Assembly: GCA_021774625.1 (NCBI GenBank)
Contig: JAJFIV010000001.1
Location: forward strand, 1 to 64,000
Origin: Alphaproteobacteria bacterium
GTDB lineage: Bacteria; Pseudomonadota; Alphaproteobacteria; Sphingomonadales; JAKSBY01
Direction of reading: 5' to 3'
DNA: 64,000 nucleotides
The first letter of the stretch is position 1. Each line of letters starts with the position of its first letter. A model generated the notes under the pieces. It was not told the DNA's origin. It did no database searches and saw nothing but the letters and a program-made list of their open reading frames with translations. This document shows, piece after piece, positions 6,109 to 28,897 of the stretch. The translations under genes were made by a program, and so were the position numbers.

Positions 6109-6825
6109 TTATTTTTCGAGCGCCGTCTGTATTGCCGCCACCTGCCGATCGATATCAATATCGCAGATCGAAGGGACCTCAATCTCCTCCGCCCGGCTTT
6201 CATAGACAATTTCTCCGGGATGCGCCTTCTGCCATTCAGCAATGGCCGCATCGCGCTTTTGGATCAGACTTTCAATCTGCGGCCGGAACAGGCGGATCAT
6301 GCAGGTGATCCAGATATTCACCGGCCAGGATGGCTGGGCATGGTCGATTTCAAAGCGGTCCAGCATGCGGATGACATCTTCGGCCCGATACCAGGTTTCG
6401 CCGGTCACCCAGCGGTTCACGGTAAAAAGCTTTTGCGGCAGGCTGCGGTTGTTCATGGAAATGCAGATGAGATGAGACAGATCGTCATACTCCGGCTCTT
6501 CATCCTCCGGCTTTGGAACATCGGCCGGAATGATATCTTCCGGCATGCCTTCCTTGCGCAGAAAAGTGTGGAAATGCCCATGCTCGCCGGTCCGGTCATC
6601 CAGAGAATGGGCGTGATAAAAAAATTGCGAATGGCTTTCCTCATCCCGGATATCATCATCGGGATAATGTTCCCATTCAAAGAACTCTTCTTCGGTTTTT
6701 AGAAGCTCGCCGACAATGGTGTCACCGGTTTTGACCAGCACCCGGTGGCACTCGATGACATATAGACCCGCCTCCAGCATAGATTCCAGCTGTTCACGGG
6801 GTATTCTTGCAAAATCAATATCCAT
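6109..6825 (-). CDS. Conserved protein of unknown function (DUF6969-like)
   Basis: An acidic cytosolic protein of 238 residues with no signal peptide or membrane segment. Notable stretches are ECHRVLVKTGDTIVGELL, GEHGHFHTFLR, HLICISMNNRSLPQKLFTVN, RWVTGETWY and an arginine-flanked ITCMIRLFRPQIESLIQKRD near the C-terminus. I associate this pattern with the DUF6969 family, but this is recall, not a search. I chose ATG 6825 because the longer frame (TTG 6894) would begin inside the terminators of the upstream gene. No clear ribosome site precedes the ATG. It shares orientation with the Cys-rich gene upstream but is separated from it by two hairpins. Confidence 0.7.
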   Translation of the reverse strand: MDIDFARIPREQLESMLEAGLYVIECHRVLVKTGDTIVGELLKTEEEFFEWEHYPDDDIRDEESHSQFFYHAHSLDDRTGEHGHFHTFLRKEGMPEDIIPADVPKPEDEEPEYDDLSHLICISMNNRSLPQKLFTVNRWVTGETWYRAEDVIRMLDRFEIDHAQPSWPVNIWITCMIRLFRPQIESLIQKRDAAIAEWQKAHPGEIVYESRAEEIEVPSICDIDIDRQVAAIQTALEK

Positions 6826-6852: not shown

Positions 6853-6888
6853 ATAAAGAAAGGCCCGCGCGCAAGGCAACGGGCCCTT
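6853..6888 (-). terminator. Second hairpin downstream of the Cys-rich gene
   Basis: On the minus strand, arms 6880-6888 and 6859-6867 pair over 9 bp (one G-U) around a 12-nt loop, followed by the T-rich run TTTCTTTA. It is a back-up intrinsic terminator, or the first one met by a transcript that reads through the hairpin at 6896-6922. Confidence 0.55.
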
Positions 6889-6895
6889 CTTCAAT

Positions 6896-6922
6896 AAAAA
6901 ACCGCGCCCCGGAGGACACGGT
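6896..6922 (-). terminator. Intrinsic terminator of the Cys-rich gene
   Basis: Minus strand reads ACCGTGTCC-TCCG-GGGCGCGGT followed by a run of T. This gives a 9-bp stem with two G-U pairs, a 4-nt loop and six T. It starts only 8 bases after the stop of the gene at 6930-7205. Confidence 0.8.
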
Positions 6923-6929
6923 CCATCAT

Positions 6930-7205
6930 TTACTTAGGTTTGCAGCCACATTTCTTGGCTTTGCATTTGGCGCCGCACTTCATGGCATGCTCGCCTTCTT
7001 TGGCGCCGCATTTGGCGCCGCACTTCATTTCATGCGCGCCGCATTTGGCGCCGCACTTGGCTTTGCAGCCGCCGCACTTGGCTTTGCACTGCATCATTGC
7101 CATTTGTCCGCCTTCCGGGCTTGCTTTCGCTGCCGGCAGAACAGACAGGGCGCTGGTGCCGGCAAGCGCCGCAACACTCAGAGCTGTAACTGTCTTTTTC
7201 AACAT
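6930..7205 (-). CDS. Small secreted Cys/Lys-rich repeat protein
   Basis: 91 residues. A signal peptide (KKTVTALSVAALAGTSALSVLPAAKA) is followed by a low-complexity mature part built from KCGA-type units, for example CGGCKAKCGAKCGA, MKCGAKCGAKEGEH and MKCGAKCKAKKCGC. There are 11 Cys, nearly all preceded by Lys, plus His and Met residues, which suggests metal (Cu, Zn) binding. The layout resembles periplasmic precursor peptides modified by MNIO (DUF692) enzymes, such as HvfA/BufA-type proteins. No DUF692 or DUF2063 gene lies beside it, so modification is only a possibility. A strong AAGGAG site lies 9 nt before ATG 7205, and a terminator follows directly, so the gene is monocistronic. Confidence 0.85.
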   Translation of the reverse strand: MLKKTVTALSVAALAGTSALSVLPAAKASPEGGQMAMMQCKAKCGGCKAKCGAKCGAHEMKCGAKCGAKEGEHAMKCGAKCKAKKCGCKPK

Positions 7206-7243
7206 GTGACCTATTCTCCTTAGGATCCTGATTTCATTTAACT

Positions 7244-7264
7244 TGTAACAGACGTCTGTAACAG
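7244..7264 (-). promoter_or_regulatory. Repeat/palindrome upstream of the Cys-rich gene
   Basis: TGTAACAG occurs twice (7244-7251 and 7257-7264), 13 nt apart from start to start. The region between them forms a perfect 10-bp palindrome, CAGACGTCTG (7249-7258). It lies 39-59 nt upstream of ATG 7205, in the promoter zone of a monocistronic gene, so it may bind a regulator or form part of an alternative sigma factor promoter. No factor can be named. Confidence 0.4.
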
Positions 7265-7377
7265 GAAGACTATTCCAGACAACCCAACTTAGCCTCCCTC
7301 AGGTTGGCTCTGTGCCGCTGCAATAGCAATATATCAACAGTGATGCAATCAACATTCCCGTGATGAGATGTGAAAAC

Positions 7378-7809
7378 TTATTGATAAATTTCCGCGGCGC
7401 GCGCCTCGAACGCCCCGACCATGCGGTGGATGGCTTCTGTGAACAGGGCGCCGGCCAGGCTTTCGAATAAACGGTTCTTGAATTCGAAATCGACCAGAAA
7501 GCGCACATCCGTGCCACCGCCAGCCGCAGGTTCAAACCGCCAGTCATTGTACAAATAGCGCAGCGGCCCCTTGATATAGTCCACATGGACATGGTTTGGC
7601 CGCTCCAGCGTGACTTTCGACGTGAAACGTTCCTTGAACACCCTGAAACCAATGATCAGATCGGCCTGAAAGCCAGTCTCGCTACGGTCATAAACCCTCG
7701 CGCCGAGGCACCAGGGCAGAAATCCCGGATAGGCCCCGACATCCGCCACCAGATCGAACATCTGTTCCGGCGTGTAGGGTAAGCGGCGGGTTTCGGTATG
7801 GCGGGGCAT
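7378..7809 (-). CDS. ratA: RatA/COQ10-type START-domain protein
   Basis: 143 residues of the polyketide cyclase/START superfamily: MPRHTETRRLPYTPEQMFDLV (first part), VGAYPGFLPWC, GARVYDR, LIIGFRVFKERFTSKVTLE and FKNRLFESLAGALFTEA. Homologues are annotated as ribosome-associating RatA (E. coli) or coenzyme Q-binding COQ10 (mitochondria). In alphaproteobacteria a role in ubiquinone handling is plausible. It lies 12 nt downstream of lipA on the same strand. The lipA-ratA pair is widespread in alphaproteobacteria. Confidence 0.9.
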   Translation of the reverse strand: MPRHTETRRLPYTPEQMFDLVADVGAYPGFLPWCLGARVYDRSETGFQADLIIGFRVFKERFTSKVTLERPNHVHVDYIKGPLRYLYNDWRFEPAAGGGTDVRFLVDFEFKNRLFESLAGALFTEAIHRMVGAFEARAAEIYQ

Positions 7810-7821
7810 CAGCGCCCCTAT

Positions 7822-8745
7822 TCAGCGTTTGCTGGCGAGCTGCGCTTCGCGGGCGGCGCGAAGCTTTTGGAAATCATCGCCGGCATGATAGCTGGAACGG
7901 GTCAGGGGTGACGCCGAGACCATGAGAAAGCCCTTGCCGCGGGCCATCTGCTCATAGGAGCGGAATTCGTCGGGCGTGACGTAGCGTTCCACTTTCGCAT
8001 GGCGCGGCGTGGGCTGGAGATACTGGCCGATGGTCAGGAAATCGATGCTGGCGGCCCGCATATCGTCCATCACCTCGTAAACCTCGCCCTTTTCTTCCCC
8101 CAAACCGACCATGATGCCGGATTTGGTGAAGATGGATGGATCGGCCTGTTTGACGCGGTCCAGAAGCTTCAGGGAATGATAATAACGGGCGCCGGGCCGG
8201 ATTGTGGGATAAAGCCTGGGCACGGTTTCCAGATTGTGATTGAAAACATCGGGCTTTGCTTCAATAACACATTCCAACGCATTGTCTTTATTGCGAAAGT
8301 CAGGTGTTAGAATTTCAATTGTCGTGCCCGGCGCGTGTTTGCGGAGCGCCTCAATAACACGCACAAACTGCTGCGCCCCGCCATCCTCCAGATCGTCCCG
8401 GTCCACCGATGTAATGACAATGTGCTCAAGCCCCAGTTCGCCGCAGGCTTCCGCCACATGCAGCGGTTCCTGAGGGTCGACCCTGCCCGGCATGCCGGTT
8501 TTGATATTGCAGAAGGCGCAGGCGCGGGTGCAGATATCGCCGAGGATCATTACGGTCGCATGCTTTTGCGTCCAGCATTCGCCGATATTGGGGCACGCCG
8601 CCTCTTCGCACACCGTATTCAGTTTCAACGAGCGCATGAGCTTGCGCGTTTCGGCAAAAGCCTTGCTTGTAGGCGCTTTTACGCGGATCCAGTCGGGTTT
8701 TCTGACCCGGGCTTCATTGTCGCGAATGGGTGTGACTTTGCTCAT
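7822..8745 (-). CDS. lipA: Lipoyl synthase
   Basis: Radical-SAM enzyme that inserts two sulfurs into octanoyl groups on lipoyl domains. It has 307 residues, with both iron-sulfur sites: the auxiliary cluster [12 protein letters not shown], and the radical-SAM CxxxCxxC in [13 protein letters not shown]. The auxiliary cluster's serine ligand is in the C-terminal RSSYHAGDD. Its products are needed by the lipoyl domains of PdhB and PdhC encoded 4-8 kb away. It is co-directional with ratA. The octanoyltransferase lipB is not in the window. Confidence 0.98.
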
Positions 8746-8801
8746 AATCCGGTCCTTATGCTCTCCCGTGACATAAGACTTCAGGCCGCTTTCGTCCAGC
8801 C

Positions 8802-9896
8802 TTAACTTTTTTGCCGGACGGCGCTGAGCCAGCGGCCCAGCCGGCCAGTCGCAAACCAGATTGCCAGCGTCAGAATAATCGAGACATAACCGTCAATGGC
8901 ATAATGCCAGGCGAGATGGACCGAGCCGATCATGATCACCGCGGCATAAGCCGTCATGACGATGCCGAAGCGGCGATTGACCTGCCAGGCGCTGAGCGCC
9001 ATCAGGGTGGCGATGGACACATGCATGCTGGGCATGGCGGAAATGCCGCTGCCAAAATGCGTGCGCGAGGCAGAATAGGCATCCCACAGGATCTGCTGGG
9101 CATCCAGCGCCCAGACGCCCAGCATGGGATGCCAGCCTTCGAGAATGGTGTCTATTTCGTGCAGACGGTCCACCAGCGGCCCATAGGGACTGTTTCCGGC
9201 TACTGCCTCATAATAGACCGGACCTGCGGACGAGAGCGTGAACGCGAAAATGGAGCCGATCACAATCCAGCAAAACAGGAAGCCGATGAAATACTGCATC
9301 CTGGCCGGGCCGTGGTGAATTTTAATGGCCTGCCAGATGGTAAAGACCCACATAGCGATGAACCAGACATTATAAAGAAAGGTCAGGATCAGGGTCGCGA
9401 GGGGCGTTCCGAACAGGGCATGGGTGATTCTCCAGGGATCGACGCCAAAATGCAGCATCCGGTCGATTTCCGCAAACAGCGGATCGAACTGAAAGCCATT
9501 CAGGCTCGGCAGCATGCTCTTGAAGGATGTGAAAGCGGCGATAAAAAACGGCAGGACGATAAAGGGCAGCACAATATCCGCCAGATCCCAATTCGTGGGC
9601 GCATAGGCGCGGACATCATTGATCAGCCGCCGCAAGGGCCGCTTTTCCCGCTCGGCAAGGGCCAGTTGCAGCGTATAGGACAAAAGCACAAAAAACCCGG
9701 CGGTGGTAACGGTCGCAATCGCCGCCTGAGAATAGCCATAGAGCACAAAATGATGCGCAAGACCGCTTGCCGCCGAAATGGCATAGACAGTAGCCACATA
9801 AAGGCCAATTACCGTCAGAAAAAACCCGACAGGGCTCAGGGCCACGCCAGCAAAACGCCGCCCAGGATTGGACAAAACAACACTATGATCGGACAT
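8802..9896 (-). CDS. PAP2-superfamily membrane phosphatase/phosphotransferase
   Basis: Integral membrane protein of 364 residues with about six hydrophobic segments. It carries the C-terminal two-thirds of the PAP2 active site: [11 protein letters not shown] (motif 2, Ser and His) and [10 protein letters not shown] (motif 3, catalytic His and Asp). This arrangement, with a long N-terminal membrane part, resembles the Aur1/Ipt1-like inositolphosphotransferase (PAP2_3) group, enzymes acting on lipid phosphates or transferring phospho-head groups. The substrate cannot be told. It lies 56 nt upstream of lipA on the same strand, and may be transcribed alone. Confidence 0.8.
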
Positions 9897-10027
9897 CGGA
9901 CCCCGTTCAAGTTATCCTGGAGTCTGAAATTAGATAAACCGGGTTTAAATTGGCTTAATGCGTGCACTGTCCTTGTTATATCCCCGTCAAGGGGGGTGAA
10001 AACGACTGAGGTTATTTGTTTTGTCTC

Positions 10028-10056
10028 TTGACTGTGCCGCTAAACGTACCATACAT
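10028..10056 (+). promoter_or_regulatory. Sigma-70-like promoter of higBA
   Basis: TTGACT (10028-10033), a 17-nt spacer, then ATACAT (10051-10056). The expected start point is at or next to the A of the higB ATG at 10063. This would give a leaderless mRNA and explains why no ribosome binding site is visible before higB. It is inferred from matches only. Confidence 0.5.
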
Positions 10057-10062
10057 TTGTTT

Positions 10063-10341
10063 ATGATACAGAGCTTTAAATGCAACGATACAAGAAAACT
10101 ATTCGAAACAGGTAAAAGCAAACGCTTTACGAATATAAAAGCAGTTGCAAAAAGAAAACTCGATTATCTGGATGCCGCAGAAGATATTATTGACCTTCGC
10201 ATTCCGCCTGGTAACAGGCTTGCAAAGCTATCCGGTGACCGGATGGGTCAATGGAGTATCAGAATAAATGATCAATGGCGTATTTGTTTTATTTGGGATG
10301 CCAATGACGCCTATGACGCCGAAATTGTGGATTACCACTAG
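10063..10341 (+). CDS. higB: HigB-type RelE-family toxin
   Basis: 92 residues from ATG 10063. HigB toxins are ribosome-dependent mRNA interferases. Family features are the opening MIQSFKCNDTRKLFETGKSKRF (first 20 or so residues), LAKLSGDRMGQWSIRINDQWRICFIW (central beta strands with Arg residues expected in the active site) and the ending AEIVDYH. It lies 11 nt upstream of higA in the usual toxin-first order. Its DNA is visibly more AT-rich than the lpdA and PAP2 genes on either side, which fits horizontal arrival. The frame extends upstream to 10021, but homology begins at 10063. Confidence 0.88.
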   Translation: MIQSFKCNDTRKLFETGKSKRFTNIKAVAKRKLDYLDAAEDIIDLRIPPGNRLAKLSGDRMGQWSIRINDQWRICFIWDANDAYDAEIVDYH

Positions 10342-10352
10342 GAGAAAACGAA

Positions 10353-10634
10353 ATGCGTATCAAAACTCACCCCGGCAAAATCTTGAAAGAGGAATTTATG
10401 CTCCCCCTCAAGCTTAGCGCCCGCACGCTCGCAAAACAGATCGACGTGCCGCATAATCGCATTTCCCAGATCATCAAGGAAGATCGGTCGATAACTGCCG
10501 ATACGGCCCACCGCCTCGCTGCCTATTTCGGCACGACCCCGCAACTCTGGATGAATTTGCAGCGTAATTATGACCTCTCGAAAGAACTGGCGGAACGTGA
10601 GCGGGAATATAAGGCAATCCCCTCACATGCCTGA
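10353..10634 (+). CDS. higA: HigA-type antitoxin, XRE DNA-binding
   Basis: 93 residues. HigA neutralises HigB and represses the operon. HPGKILKEEFMLPLKLSARTL starts the typical domain; the helix-turn-helix spans about 24-45 (LAKQIDVPHNRISQII), then ADTAHRLAAYFGTTPQLWMNLQ and a charged tail. AGGAG lies 8 nt before the ATG. It converges on lpdA: its stop at 10634 is 4 nt from the lpdA stop, so no room exists for separate terminators. Confidence 0.93.
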   Translation: MRIKTHPGKILKEEFMLPLKLSARTLAKQIDVPHNRISQIIKEDRSITADTAHRLAAYFGTTPQLWMNLQRNYDLSKELAEREREYKAIPSHA

Positions 10635-24109: not shown

Positions 24110-24805
24110 TTACGGCTTTTTGAACCCGCGGGCGATGACATAGAGTTCTGTTGATTCCGGGCGGCTGGCCTCCGGCTTGAAATGTTTGACGCTGGTAAAA
24201 TATTTCCGCATCTCAGCCAGTAATTGCGCTTCGGTGCCGCCCTGCAGGACCTTTGCGACGAAGGTGCCGCCGGGCGCGGTGATGCGGATGGCAAAGTCAA
24301 AGGCTGCCTCGACCAGCACCAGGGTCCGCAAATGATCGGTCTGTTTATGGCCCGTGGTGGGGGCCGCCATGTCGCTTAGCACGACATCCACCTTGCCGCC
24401 GATGGCCTTTAGAAGCCGGTCTTCCGCATCATCGGCCAGAAAATCCAGCTTGAGAATGGTCACCTCCGGCAGCGCATCCATATCAAGAATATCAACGGCA
24501 ATCACGCGGCTGTTTTTGGGTGCCAGTTGCCGGATGATTTGCGTCCAGCCGCCGGGAGCCGACCCAAGATCAAGAATGCTGCCGGCCTTTTTCAGAAACC
24601 CGTGGGTGTTTTCCATTTCCTTCAGCTTAAAGGCCGCGCGCGAACGGTAACCAAGCCGCTGGGCCTCAGCTACGAACGGGTCATTCAGGTGCCGCTCCAG
24701 CCAGCGCCGGGAGGATATCTTGCGCCCCCTGCCCGGTTTCAGCTTGACCCGGGGCCCGCGGCTGCGGCCCGACACATGGCCCGCCCCTTTCCCCTTCCCG
24801 CTCAT
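24110..24805 (-). CDS. rlmE: 23S rRNA 2'-O-methyltransferase (FtsJ/RrmJ)
   Basis: Methylates the 2'-OH of a uridine in the 23S A-loop on the 50S subunit. It has 231 residues. A basic N-terminal extension (KGKGAGHVSGRSRGPRVKLK) is probably for rRNA contact. Then come SRAAFKLKEM (first catalytic Lys), the SAM motif LDLGSAPGGWTQII, DILDM, VVLSDMAAPTTGH and GGTFVAKVLQG (second Lys). It overlaps the upstream ppx by 4 nt (ATGA), so they are translationally coupled. Confidence 0.95.
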   Translation of the reverse strand: MSGKGKGAGHVSGRSRGPRVKLKPGRGRKISSRRWLERHLNDPFVAEAQRLGYRSRAAFKLKEMENTHGFLKKAGSILDLGSAPGGWTQIIRQLAPKNSRVIAVDILDMDALPEVTILKLDFLADDAEDRLLKAIGGKVDVVLSDMAAPTTGHKQTDHLRTLVLVEAAFDFAIRITAPGGTFVAKVLQGGTEAQLLAEMRKYFTSVKHFKPEASRPESTELYVIARGFKKP

Positions 24806-25887
24806 TTCCGGCTCCTGGCATTGACCAGCGGATCCCGCTTCATCAGGCTCCAGAGAATGCCTTCGCGAATGCCGCGGTCCGCTACATGCAGATGCTCGAT
24901 GGGCCAGGCGGACAGGATGGCATCCAGGATCGCACAGCCGGCGGCGACCAGATCGGCCCGCTCGGTGCCGACACAGGCATTGGCCGCCCGCGTTTCATAA
25001 TCCACTGTCGCAATATTTTTCGATAAACCACTGATATCACTTGATAAAAAGCGACTTCCGTCAACTTTATTGCGGTCATAGAAATCAAGACCAAGCTGGA
25101 CGCTGGCCAGTGTGGTCACTGTTCCCGATGTGCCGATCATCTGGACCTGGCCGCGGGCGGCAACCGGCGTCATTTGGGTGTTTTTTTCAAAAACGGAGAT
25201 ATGTTCCGAAACCTCATCGAAAATCCCGCGGTAGGATGCTTGGCTAAGACTGCCGCCATTAAGACGCTCGGATACATTGACCACACCGTAAGGCATGGAA
25301 ACCCAGCCCAGCACCTTGGGCATGCGTTCGCCGCCCAGTTCCACCCAGACCAGTTCGGTGCTGCCGCCGCCGATATCGAAAATCACCGCCGTTTCATATT
25401 GCGTGTTGAACAGCGCGTGGCAGCCAAGGGCTGCGAGGCGCGCCTCCTCCCCGGCCGTAATGACGTCAAGGGCGAGGCCGGTTTCCTCATAGACCCGGGA
25501 AACGAAGGCGCTGGAATTACCCGCCAGCCGGCAGGCTTCAGTCGCCACATGGCGCATTTTAGTGACTTTGCGGCGCTGGATTTTTTCCGCGCAGACCTTC
25601 AGCGCATCAATAGTGCGGTCCATGGCGACGGGGCTGAGCTCCCCCGAGGCGCCCAATCCTTCGCCGAGGCGGACAATTCTCGAAAAGGCGTCAATGATTT
25701 TAAAACCGCCATGAACCGGCTTGGCGATGAGCAAACGGCAGTTATTGGTGCCGAGATCAAGGGCGCTGTAGACCTCCCGTCTGGATATCCGCTGAAAAAG
25801 ACCGCGCCGGACGGAGCCCTGCTGCGGGTTGGATTGACCGTTACCGGCCCGCCGCTCACCGCGGCTGCCATCGCTTTTGACCGTCAT
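24802..25887 (-). CDS. ppx: Exopolyphosphatase / GppA-family phosphatase
   Basis: 361 residues of the ASKHA-fold Ppx/GppA family, which degrade polyphosphate or pppGpp. The phosphate-binding loops are SALDLGTNNCRLLIAKP and IFDIGGGSTELVWVE, with ISAGEEARLA-like ITAGEEARLAALG between them. It is the short single-module form lacking the long C-terminal HD-like extension of E. coli Ppx. The N-terminal 40 residues are rich in Gly and Arg and may not all be translated. It is transcribed with rlmE in a 4-nt overlap, a recurring alphaproteobacterial pair. Confidence 0.9.
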   Translation of the reverse strand: MTVKSDGSRGERRAGNGQSNPQQGSVRRGLFQRISRREVYSALDLGTNNCRLLIAKPVHGGFKIIDAFSRIVRLGEGLGASGELSPVAMDRTIDALKVCAEKIQRRKVTKMRHVATEACRLAGNSSAFVSRVYEETGLALDVITAGEEARLAALGCHALFNTQYETAVIFDIGGGSTELVWVELGGERMPKVLGWVSMPYGVVNVSERLNGGSLSQASYRGIFDEVSEHISVFEKNTQMTPVAARGQVQMIGTSGTVTTLASVQLGLDFYDRNKVDGSRFLSSDISGLSKNIATVDYETRAANACVGTERADLVAAGCAILDAILSAWPIEHLHVADRGIREGILWSLMKRDPLVNARSRK

Positions 25888-27192: not shown

Positions 27193-27735
27193 ATGGATAT
27201 TCGTACATTATGTTTGGGAATTTTATCCCTTGGCGACGCCACCGGTTACGAGATTAAAAAGCTTGTGGCCGAGGGTAGTTTCAGTTTTTTCAGCGAGGCG
27301 AGTTACGGCTCCATTTATCCGGCGCTCAACCGCCTCATGGAGGAAGAACTGGTCACCTGCAAGGAAATGGCCCAGGAAAAACGACCGGATAAAAAGGTCT
27401 ACAGCCTGACGGACGCAGGACGGGAGGAATTGATGCAATCTCTCTCTCGCGATCCGGGCCCCGACCGCAACAGGTCGGAATTTCTGGCGGCGCTGCTGTT
27501 TGCAGAATCCGTCTCGCCGGACCGGGTGGGCCAGTTGATTAACGACCGGATTTCCTATCATCAGGAAAAGGTCCAAGCGTTGGAAGCGCTGCTTGAAGAT
27601 GAAATGTCCACCGCTTCCCGCTTTGTTGTTCAGTTCGGGGTCGCGGTCCAGAAAGCAGCCTGTGACTTCCTGCAAAACAACCGGCAGGTGTTTGAGGAAA
27701 CCGGTGTAACAGATGCGAACCAGGCCGCACTATAA
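27193..27735 (+). CDS. PadR-family transcriptional regulator
   Basis: 180 residues from ATG 27193, preceded by AAGTGAG 4 nt upstream. The frame could extend 3 codons to a GTG at 27184. The winged helix domain is clear: LCLGILSLGDATGYEIKKL, FSEASYGSIYPALNRL, DKKVYSLTDAGREEL. The C-terminal half is helical (dimerisation and ligand domain). PadR proteins repress neighbouring efflux or catabolic genes until a phenolic or hydrophobic ligand binds. The RND efflux pair starting 80 nt downstream is the likely target. Confidence 0.92.
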   Translation: MDIRTLCLGILSLGDATGYEIKKLVAEGSFSFFSEASYGSIYPALNRLMEEELVTCKEMAQEKRPDKKVYSLTDAGREELMQSLSRDPGPDRNRSEFLAALLFAESVSPDRVGQLINDRISYHQEKVQALEALLEDEMSTASRFVVQFGVAVQKAACDFLQNNRQVFEETGVTDANQAAL

Positions 27736-27814
27736 GCGGTATTTGAAAAGATAACGAAGGATCCTTGTAACCGGGTGCGACTGGGAGAGGATACGCAGAC
27801 AAGGCGACAGCGAA

Positions 27815-28897
27815 ATGAAAAAACCAATTTTTGCCGCAATTATTATTACCATATTAATCGTGCTCTGGGTTTTGTCCGGGCAGTTCGGCGGCCAGCCATC
27901 GGACGCCGGCCAGGATGACAAGGCCGCAAAGAACGACCAGGAAGAGCTCTTCACTGTCAAGGCGAGCCAACTGGCGGCCCAAAGCTATATCAAACAGATC
28001 ACGGTCCGCGGCCGGACCGAGGCGCTGCGGACCGTTGAACTGAAGGCCGAGACCGAAGGCCGGGTCAGCGCGACGCCTCTGGAAAAAGGCCAGCGCATTA
28101 AAGAGGGTGCGCTGATCTGCCAGCTTGAACCCAATGACAAGGAAGCCAGTCTCGCCGAGGCCCGCGCGCTGGTTCAGCAGCGTCAGCTGGAATATGACGC
28201 GGCGGTTGAACTGGCGGCCAAGGGCCATCGGTCAGAAACCCAGGCTGCAGGTTCCAAGGCATTACTGGACGCCGCCCTTGCGCAGGCACGGCGCGCAGAG
28301 GTCGAACTGGCCCGCACATCGATCCGCGCACCGTTTGACGGACTGATTGAAGACCGGCCCGCAGAAGTGGGCGATCTTCTGCTCAAAGGAAATGTCTGCG
28401 CCAAAATGGTGTTTGAAGATCCGTTTCTGGTGATCGGCGAAGTTTCGGAAAACGAAGTCAGCTTCATCGAGCCTGGACAACCGGCGACTGCGAAACTGGT
28501 TGACGGCAAAGTCTTGAATGGCAAAATCCGTTTTGTCGCCACGACGGCGCGGCCCGAAACCCGCACTTTTCGTGTGGAGATCGAAGTTCCCAACCCCGAG
28601 CACACCCTTCGGGACGGCATTACGGCGGAAATCAAGATCCCGCTGAGCAATATATTTGCCCATTTCATCCCTTCATCCGCGATGGTGCTGGATGATGACG
28701 GCCGGGTCGGCATCCGTGCGGTTGAGAACGGCCATGTCAGATTTTTCCCGATCGAGATTATCGGCGATGATTTCAACGGCCTCTGGGTTTCCGGTTTACC
28801 GAGCCGCTTCTCCCTGATCACGGTCGGTCAGGATTTTGTCAGCGAAGGGCAGGAAGTGGCTGTCAGCCTGGAGGAAAATGCCGGAGGCCAGTCATGA
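27815..28897 (+). CDS. RND efflux membrane fusion protein
   Basis: 360 residues. The N-terminal anchor is IFAAIIITILIVLWVLSG, with no lipobox. Then a barrel-sandwich/lipoyl pair flanks a short alpha-hairpin: ITVRGRTEALRTVELKAETE, EKGQRIKEGALICQLE, the hairpin LVQQRQLEYDAAVELAAKG, TSIRAPFDGLIEDRPAEVGD. It should connect the RND pump to an outer membrane channel, though no TolC-type gene is in the window. It overlaps the RND gene by 4 nt (ATGA). The padR gene 80 nt upstream suggests induced expression. Confidence 0.92.
   Translation: MKKPIFAAIIITILIVLWVLSGQFGGQPSDAGQDDKAAKNDQEELFTVKASQLAAQSYIKQITVRGRTEALRTVELKAETEGRVSATPLEKGQRIKEGALICQLEPNDKEASLAEARALVQQRQLEYDAAVELAAKGHRSETQAAGSKALLDAALAQARRAEVELARTSIRAPFDGLIEDRPAEVGDLLLKGNVCAKMVFEDPFLVIGEVSENEVSFIEPGQPATAKLVDGKVLNGKIRFVATTARPETRTFRVEIEVPNPEHTLRDGITAEIKIPLSNIFAHFIPSSAMVLDDDGRVGIRAVENGHVRFFPIEIIGDDFNGLWVSGLPSRFSLITVGQDFVSEGQEVAVSLEENAGGQS

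Follow-up and report, generated by a model that had tools for sequence, protein, structure and literature searches.

Cysteine-repeat proteins encoded beside DUF6969: a candidate two-part unit in Alphaproteobacteria

Small exported proteins crowded with cysteines raise the question of whether a dedicated partner acts on them before they leave the cytosol, and if so which one. The 64,000-nucleotide stretch of alphaproteobacterial DNA analysed here (the window) carries such a case: a single ORF of 91 aa with 11 Cys and five KCGA tetrapeptides, for which the original prediction of a KCGA-repeat protein with a signal-peptide-like start was confirmed by ORF analysis and residue counts and, for the start, by eye. 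The same prediction described the gene as an orphan and a single-gene unit. Neither point was confirmed, as a gene for a protein of the Pfam family DUF6969 adjoins it on the same strand and the pairing recurs widely in other genomes. The two genes have the appearance of a so far undescribed route to Cys-rich, probably metal-handling proteins.

The cysteine-repeat gene and its surroundings

The protein starts with a hydrophobic, Lys-containing segment which, by eye, resembles a Sec signal and ends in an A-x-A-like site, followed by a tail of KCGA, KCGG, KCK and KCGC units (Table 1). Searches of Pfam and NCBIfam gave no match up to E 10 (HMMER filters drop most weak matches), and hence none to the Pfam metallothionein family or to DUF2282; the string EGKCG does not occur in the sequence, and the predicted structure is uninformative (pLDDT 46). 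It is plausible that the product is a metal-handling exported protein. The DUF6969 gene is the next one after it, 104 bp past the stop codon, and its product matches PF22308 with 267.5 bits against a curated cut-off of 27.

Table 1. Coordinates in the window of the features of the Cys-repeat/DUF6969 locus, with the basis of each assignment.
Feature	Position	Strand	Basis
DUF6969 (PF22308) protein, 238 aa from ATG	6109..6825	-	Pfam E 8.6e-80; 6.4e-80 from ATG
Second terminator-like hairpin, then T-rich run	6862..6885	-	By eye; loop too long for scan
Terminator-like hairpin between Cys-repeat gene and DUF6969	6899..6924	-	Scan, 11 pairs
Cys-repeat protein, predicted to be exported (putative precursor)	6930..7205	-	ORF; Cys count; relatives L004-L008, L230 adjoining DUF6969
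Signal-peptide-like N-terminus, 28 residues	7122..7205	-	By eye; identity in L005-L008
Ribosome-binding site AAGGAG	7216..7221	-	Sequence; 10 nt before ATG
20-bp near-palindrome	7244..7263	-	38 bp upstream of start codon; unique in genome

The strong ribosome site that had been noted holds up, the AAGGAG ahead of the Cys-repeat ATG being the sole one in the 3.3-kb locus (L001). The candidate operator fared differently in its two parts. The near-palindrome itself, TGTAACAGACGTCTGTAACA, is symmetric at 18 of 20 positions and, with up to three mismatches allowed, was matched once in the window as opposed to never in 100 shuffles. Its role as an operator was not borne out: no other site was found at the same tolerance in the 2.99-Mb genome, and an inverted-repeat scan upstream of 64 related genes detected nothing resembling it, so that its symmetry is what remains in favour of that role. 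An operator shared by a regulon was accordingly rejected. TGTWAC-type half-sites numbered 16, compared with 11.4 in shuffles, and no sigma-70-like promoter was found between 6780 and 7450.

The twin terminators of the original prediction correspond to the two hairpins of Table 1, one found by the scan and one by eye, but the interval between the Cys-repeat gene and DUF6969 in the window performed no better than shuffles in a hairpin test (8 of 10 shuffles also scored). Across related loci, a hairpin separates the Cys-repeat gene from DUF6969 in 31 of 42 close same-strand pairs, with 15.9 expected from shuffles, and many of the real intergenic hairpins score high.

Cysteine repeats are linked to DUF6969 across genomes

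The nearest relatives of the window protein (L004-L008) have a similar signal peptide (71-75% identity over residues 1-28 in L005, L007 and L008; 68% over residues 1-34 in L006) but carry CNPCAAKK repeats, and all five are followed by DUF6969 on the same strand. A further relative, L009, likewise has this signal peptide and repeats of CNPC type, but no DUF6969 within the 6 kb examined. The KCGA repeat recurs in a genome of another class (L230), where it lies directly before DUF6969 in a protein 59% identical to that of the window in a low-complexity alignment. The refuting condition named in the original prediction, a Cys pattern that is not conserved in orthologues, was partly borne out: the nearest relatives do not retain KCGA as such, but richness in Cys, the export signal and the linkage to DUF6969 are kept. 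Weak matches in two other genomes (G030, G058) were spurious on inspection.

Taken over all loci, the repeats differ widely in sequence, with KCGA, CNPCAAKK, CCAAEG, CAACGA, CAACGAACAAG, CAAAGCAPAG, NPCAANPCAA and CSPCGAAK all adjoining DUF6969, whereas the DUF6969 partner is constant. The low-complexity proteins of CNPC/CCAA type that were tested gave no convincing family match. We propose to group these proteins as DUF6969-linked Cys-repeat exported proteins, a grouping that takes in the window pair, in which the Cys-repeat gene immediately precedes DUF6969 and is read in the same direction.

The linkage was quantified with Cys-repeat ORFs defined as low-entropy ORFs in which a stretch of 45 residues holds 7 or more Cys. 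The set of DUF6969 genes comprised 146 non-redundant members, including a few fragments, and 79 have such an ORF within 4 kb, 75 being genuine-looking repeats and 4 noise-like. The count is 73 of 140 without six loci brought in by the precursor search, and 37 of 81 when only genes with about 4 kb of flank on both sides are considered; of the 138 genes with roughly 500 bp of flank, 50 have a Cys-repeat ORF inside that distance. In random control windows, placed in 30 stretches of 20 kb from DUF6969-carrying genomes at sites picked by round coordinates, only 5.9% (4 kb) and 1.4% (500 bp) of draws held a Cys-repeat ORF, and the four ORFs concerned were Arg/Ser/Trp-rich non-repeat noise. A stricter rule, demanding the same strand, a distance of at most 700 bp upstream and a hydrophobic start, is passed by 44 of 147, at least two of which look spurious (L099, L128). 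The remaining 67 of the 146 genes (71 when the four noise-like cases are dropped) lack a Cys-repeat ORF within 4 kb, and some of these negatives have weaker Cys tails just under the threshold (L032, L053, L259).

Linkage is accompanied by co-occurrence at the level of whole genomes, a measure independent of where the genes lie. DUF6969 is carried by 37 of 296 genomes sampled in the order, 90 of 385 in the class and 20 of 398 in the phylum, 7 of these 20 lying outside the class. The DNA pattern for CNPCNPC was matched in 35 of the 385 class genomes, and DUF6969 is present in 32 of these versus 58 of the other 350 (Fisher P = 1.7e-19, odds ratio 54, kinship ignored). The three CNPCNPC genomes without it are G418 (93% complete), G588 (91% complete) and G451; neither the two matches in the last nor the match in the DUF6969-positive G592 corresponded to a repeat ORF at the stretches examined. 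Some genomes (G633, G391, G665) have CNPCNPC matches away from DUF6969, and in G322 a repeat ORF is present at such a remote match (L244). Outside the class, four of the seven DUF6969 genomes (G852, G931, G1003, G743) showed no Cys-repeat ORF in the stretches examined. Three of them (G852, G931 and G1003; L227, L228 and L231) are genomes of about 2 Mb with no such ORF in 10 kb, whose substrates may be elsewhere or different.

A precursor model of CCAAEG type matched 26 of the 296 order genomes, 24 of which have DUF6969. As this model was built from DUF6969 loci, its informative part is the negatives matched: 2 of 259 DUF6969-negative genomes (G206, G193), neither with Cys in the mature part. 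A looser search covering 80 of these 259 genomes matched 14, and of 11 loci inspected from it three passed the signal-peptide filter, all without mature Cys; G142 is one further recognisable Cys-less candidate. Among the Cys-less proteins of G206, G193 and G142, only that of G206 is a convincing relative. It is a lipoprotein-like product (L257, 5182-5439) that keeps AEG repeats behind a signal peptide of similar sequence, and Glu and Met stand in place of the Cys of its relatives. The occurrence of Cys-less relatives in DUF6969-negative genomes is suggestive support for a DUF6969-Cys link.

These data bear on another account of the gene, a plain unmodified metallothionein-like periplasmic sponge with DUF6969 as a merely co-inherited neighbour. 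The short tail, whose structural model is of low confidence, could bind soft metals through its eleven Cys unmodified, and bacterial metallothioneins of the SmtA type are likewise small, Cys-rich and presumably metal-binding, although SmtA is cytosolic, whereas the window protein begins with what resembles an export signal and matches no Pfam family. A co-occurrence with DUF6969 that spans many families, some genomes of other classes and unlike repeats, together with the missing mature Cys in the recognisable relatives of DUF6969-negative genomes (G206, G193, G142), makes this account very unlikely.

DUF6969 as a possible partner of the precursor

The Pfam name of PF22308 carries, to our knowledge, no function. 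A literature search, with subscription papers and preprints mostly outside its scope, found no paper containing 'DUF6969', and among the matches listed no title or abstract start dealt with DUF6969 or these repeats. In an alignment of 138 family members, H71, H84, H86, H118 and R191 are present in every sequence, D192 and N137 are each found in 137, H73 in 136, H53 in 134 and E81 in 132, and T141 is likewise conserved. In 143 of 146 DUF6969 ORFs there is no hydrophobic start and no apparent export signal, the other three being over-long ORFs.

An AlphaFold2 model of DUF6969 is confident (pLDDT 93.3, pTM 0.92), and comparison with the PDB turned up no clear fold match, the top scores being E 1.9 with Foldseek and Z 6.4, over 57 residues, with VIA. 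The best E value against a viral fold library was 0.31, and no solved structure was matched by sequence up to E 10. For this predicted model, the lack of a clear fold match means that no relative was recognised and is in itself no evidence of a new fold. The HxHxH and HxH motifs suggest a histidine-triad (HIT) or cupin protein; that assignment was set aside in view of this fold comparison, which does not disprove a relationship. A fusion of DUF6969 to Cys repeats or other domains was likewise rejected: long extensions occur in 28 ORFs, and the six inspected read as upstream frame artefacts. Two extra copies (L051, 6163-6972, in G021; L052, 1637-2446, in G032) have a decayed motif with Leu at H73 and are perhaps paralogues losing function.

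The reading that we favour, at a probability of roughly 45%, is that the window gene supplies the precursor in a conserved unit of two parts, in which DUF6969 would act on the Cys-rich precursor before export, either modifying its Cys or loading it with metal. The mechanism that we infer, including contact, chemistry, metal and transcriptional coupling, would run as follows. The precursor would be made with its Sec-type signal, followed by a short repeat tail that is rich in Cys and variable in sequence. DUF6969 would remain cytosolic, meet the precursor and act on this tail ahead of export, most likely as a metal-dependent Cys-modifying enzyme; a more modest version has it loading metal or serving as a chaperone. 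Once exported, the product would bind a soft metal in the periplasm, with copper as a first guess, and probably buffers it there. Both genes would be served by one promoter, the intergenic terminator-like hairpins allowing much precursor and little DUF6969, an arrangement with abundant precursor and scarce enzyme as in RiPP clusters. Recognition of the precursor through its leader would fit the identities in one of three groups of loci, where conservation is higher in the signal peptide than in DUF6969 (68% versus 54%, 274 pairs); the relation is reversed in the group of the window (49% versus 56%, 78 pairs) and in the third group (33% versus 57%, 65 pairs).

The invariant His could also have a structural or sensing role. 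In a rival account DUF6969 leaves the Cys unmodified, its His cluster binding metal so as to load the precursor, keep it reduced and export-competent, or sense metal and tune expression. An invariant set consisting mostly of His fits metal binding as well as catalysis, and the lack of an apparent export signal and a DUF6969 less variable than its putative substrates also speak for this account. The conserved R191-D192, N137 and T141, however, look to us like more than metal ligands, and the fold comparison pointed to neither a DNA-binding protein nor a known chaperone, which is weak evidence; on the whole we regard a purely non-modifying DUF6969 as somewhat unlikely.

The favoured reading, that of an enzyme or loader acting on the precursor, has to be set against the known route to such products. 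In the portions of PMC12452194 drawn on here, it is MNIO enzymes that produce exported, Cys-rich metallophores with such a design, and the bufferins (Buf1/DUF2282 and Buf2) are described as MNIO-modified RiPPs with a Sec-signal precursor, the MNIO and a partner protein. The original prediction likened the window protein to MNIO-modified precursors, which is correct in that the broad design is the same; it was also right that no DUF692-type enzyme is adjacent, though it overlooked the DUF6969 neighbour. Its suggestion that the modifying enzyme may lie elsewhere fails for MNIO. Neither MNIO (PF05114) nor DUF2063 (PF09836), the MNIO partner family, was matched anywhere in the genome of the window (2.99 Mb, 35 contigs, estimated 100% complete), while both searches were positive in Caulobacter and that for PF05114 also in Deinobacterium, and an MNIO gene elsewhere in the genome was therefore rejected.

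Among the 36 other DUF6969 genomes of the order, an MNIO gene is present in 25 and missing in 11, indicating that the two systems often coexist yet are separable. The similar broad design of Sec-like start and Cys-rich tail and the 25 MNIO-bearing genomes are what favours a bufferin or oxazolin precursor modified by a distant MNIO. Against a genome with no PF05114 or PF09836 match, a precursor with no EGKCG motif and no NCBIfam or Pfam match, and 11 further DUF6969 genomes in which MNIO is missing as well, the likelihood of this explanation is next to negligible. EGKCG genes are themselves very few in genomes without MNIO and its partner, as PMC12452194 reports. In one genome (G129, contig C1) an MNIO gene (24301-25116) lies about 2.5 kb from DUF6969 (27652-28218), and in two others (G245, G258) the two genes are on one contig within about 16 kb; a shared metal-response neighbourhood is possible.

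By analogy, the bufferin system is the closest working parallel, one of design and not of membership, its defining enzyme and partner not having been found here. Both systems have a Cys-rich precursor, with a Sec signal in bufferins and a Sec-like start, judged by eye, in the window protein; dedicated biosynthetic partner proteins are a further parallel, a part that DUF6969 would play here. The cytochrome c and FGE-sulfatase families, which occur in a few bufferin fusions (PMC12452194), are neighbours of DUF6969 in our loci. They differ in that the genome of the window lacks MNIO and DUF2063 matches and its precursor a DUF2282 match, the partner being DUF6969, for which Pfam and PDB searches revealed no relation to MNIO. 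Repeated Lys-Cys-Gly units after a signal peptide, or in the window protein a signal-peptide-like start, are shared with Buf_EGKCG/oxazolin precursors, but the window protein has neither their EGKCG motif nor their 17-residue repeat (PMC12452194).

A bolder form of the favoured reading, which we advance tentatively, is that DUF6969 is a cytosolic metalloenzyme of a novel, His-ligated class with no relation to MNIO, which modifies Cys in exported precursors of near-arbitrary repeat. Its products would be metallophores of ribosomal origin or thiol-cofactor proteins, forming a large family that has escaped recognition; they would occur across the class and in some genomes of other classes of the phylum, and some would be made where P460 or SoxA/TsdA-like cytochromes and FGE-like proteins indicate metal or sulfur redox chemistry. 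If DUF6969 does the job of MNIO without being related to it, there would be a second route to exported Cys-rich metallophores, present in 90 of 385 sampled class genomes and overlooked by genome mining keyed to MNIO; PF22308 would gain a function, and the low-complexity proteins of CNPC/CCAA type would be explained.

Neighbourhoods of DUF6969 loci

Neighbour clusters were compiled around the 146 DUF6969 genes, and Pfam matches of one or two members gave each cluster its name. They include CNPC-P460 (35 loci), FGE-sulfatase-like (26), cytochrome c (19) and Sulf_transp (7) proteins, for which a BLAST recount gave 33, 33, 26 and 7, respectively. Other common clusters are DUF2336 (15), FtsJ-type (12), DctM-type transporters (12) and TspO (8), and some of the clusters may be mere synteny among related genomes. 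Repeats are also fused to SoxA/TsdA-like cytochrome c at L225 and L229, from another class, and at L235, from the same class.

Because of these P460, SoxA/TsdA and Sulf_transp contexts, a redox role is a live rival: the pair would belong to a sulfur or nitrogen-oxide redox unit, in which the repeats, beside or fused with cytochromes, use their Cys to carry sulfane sulfur or to react with oxidants. Both the neighbour clusters and the three cytochrome fusions point in this direction. The locus itself does not, since the seven tested neighbours of the window gene include no protein of P460, FGE, cytochrome c or Sulf_transp type, and none was found in 29 loci whose proteins have the look of what we take to be a sphingomonad type, 21 of which had only about 1.5 kb per side. 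As an explanation of the window pair we consider it distinctly unlikely.

The fused repeats of L225, L229 and L235 are of NPCAAK/CNPC type, as are those of a further case judged by eye (L232); in all four the cytochrome c domain is SoxA/TsdA-like or MauG-like and DUF6969 lies next to the fusion. The genome of the window carries a second DUF6969 gene (contig C4, L041) in an operon-like row on one strand, comprising a P460-kind protein with CNPC/KCGG repeats (8819-9838), an FGE-like protein (7911-8798) and DUF6969 (7164-7898). Elsewhere in the window, two small adjoining genes on the plus strand (10021-10341 and 10353-10634) resemble, by eye, a HigB/HigA toxin-antitoxin pair.
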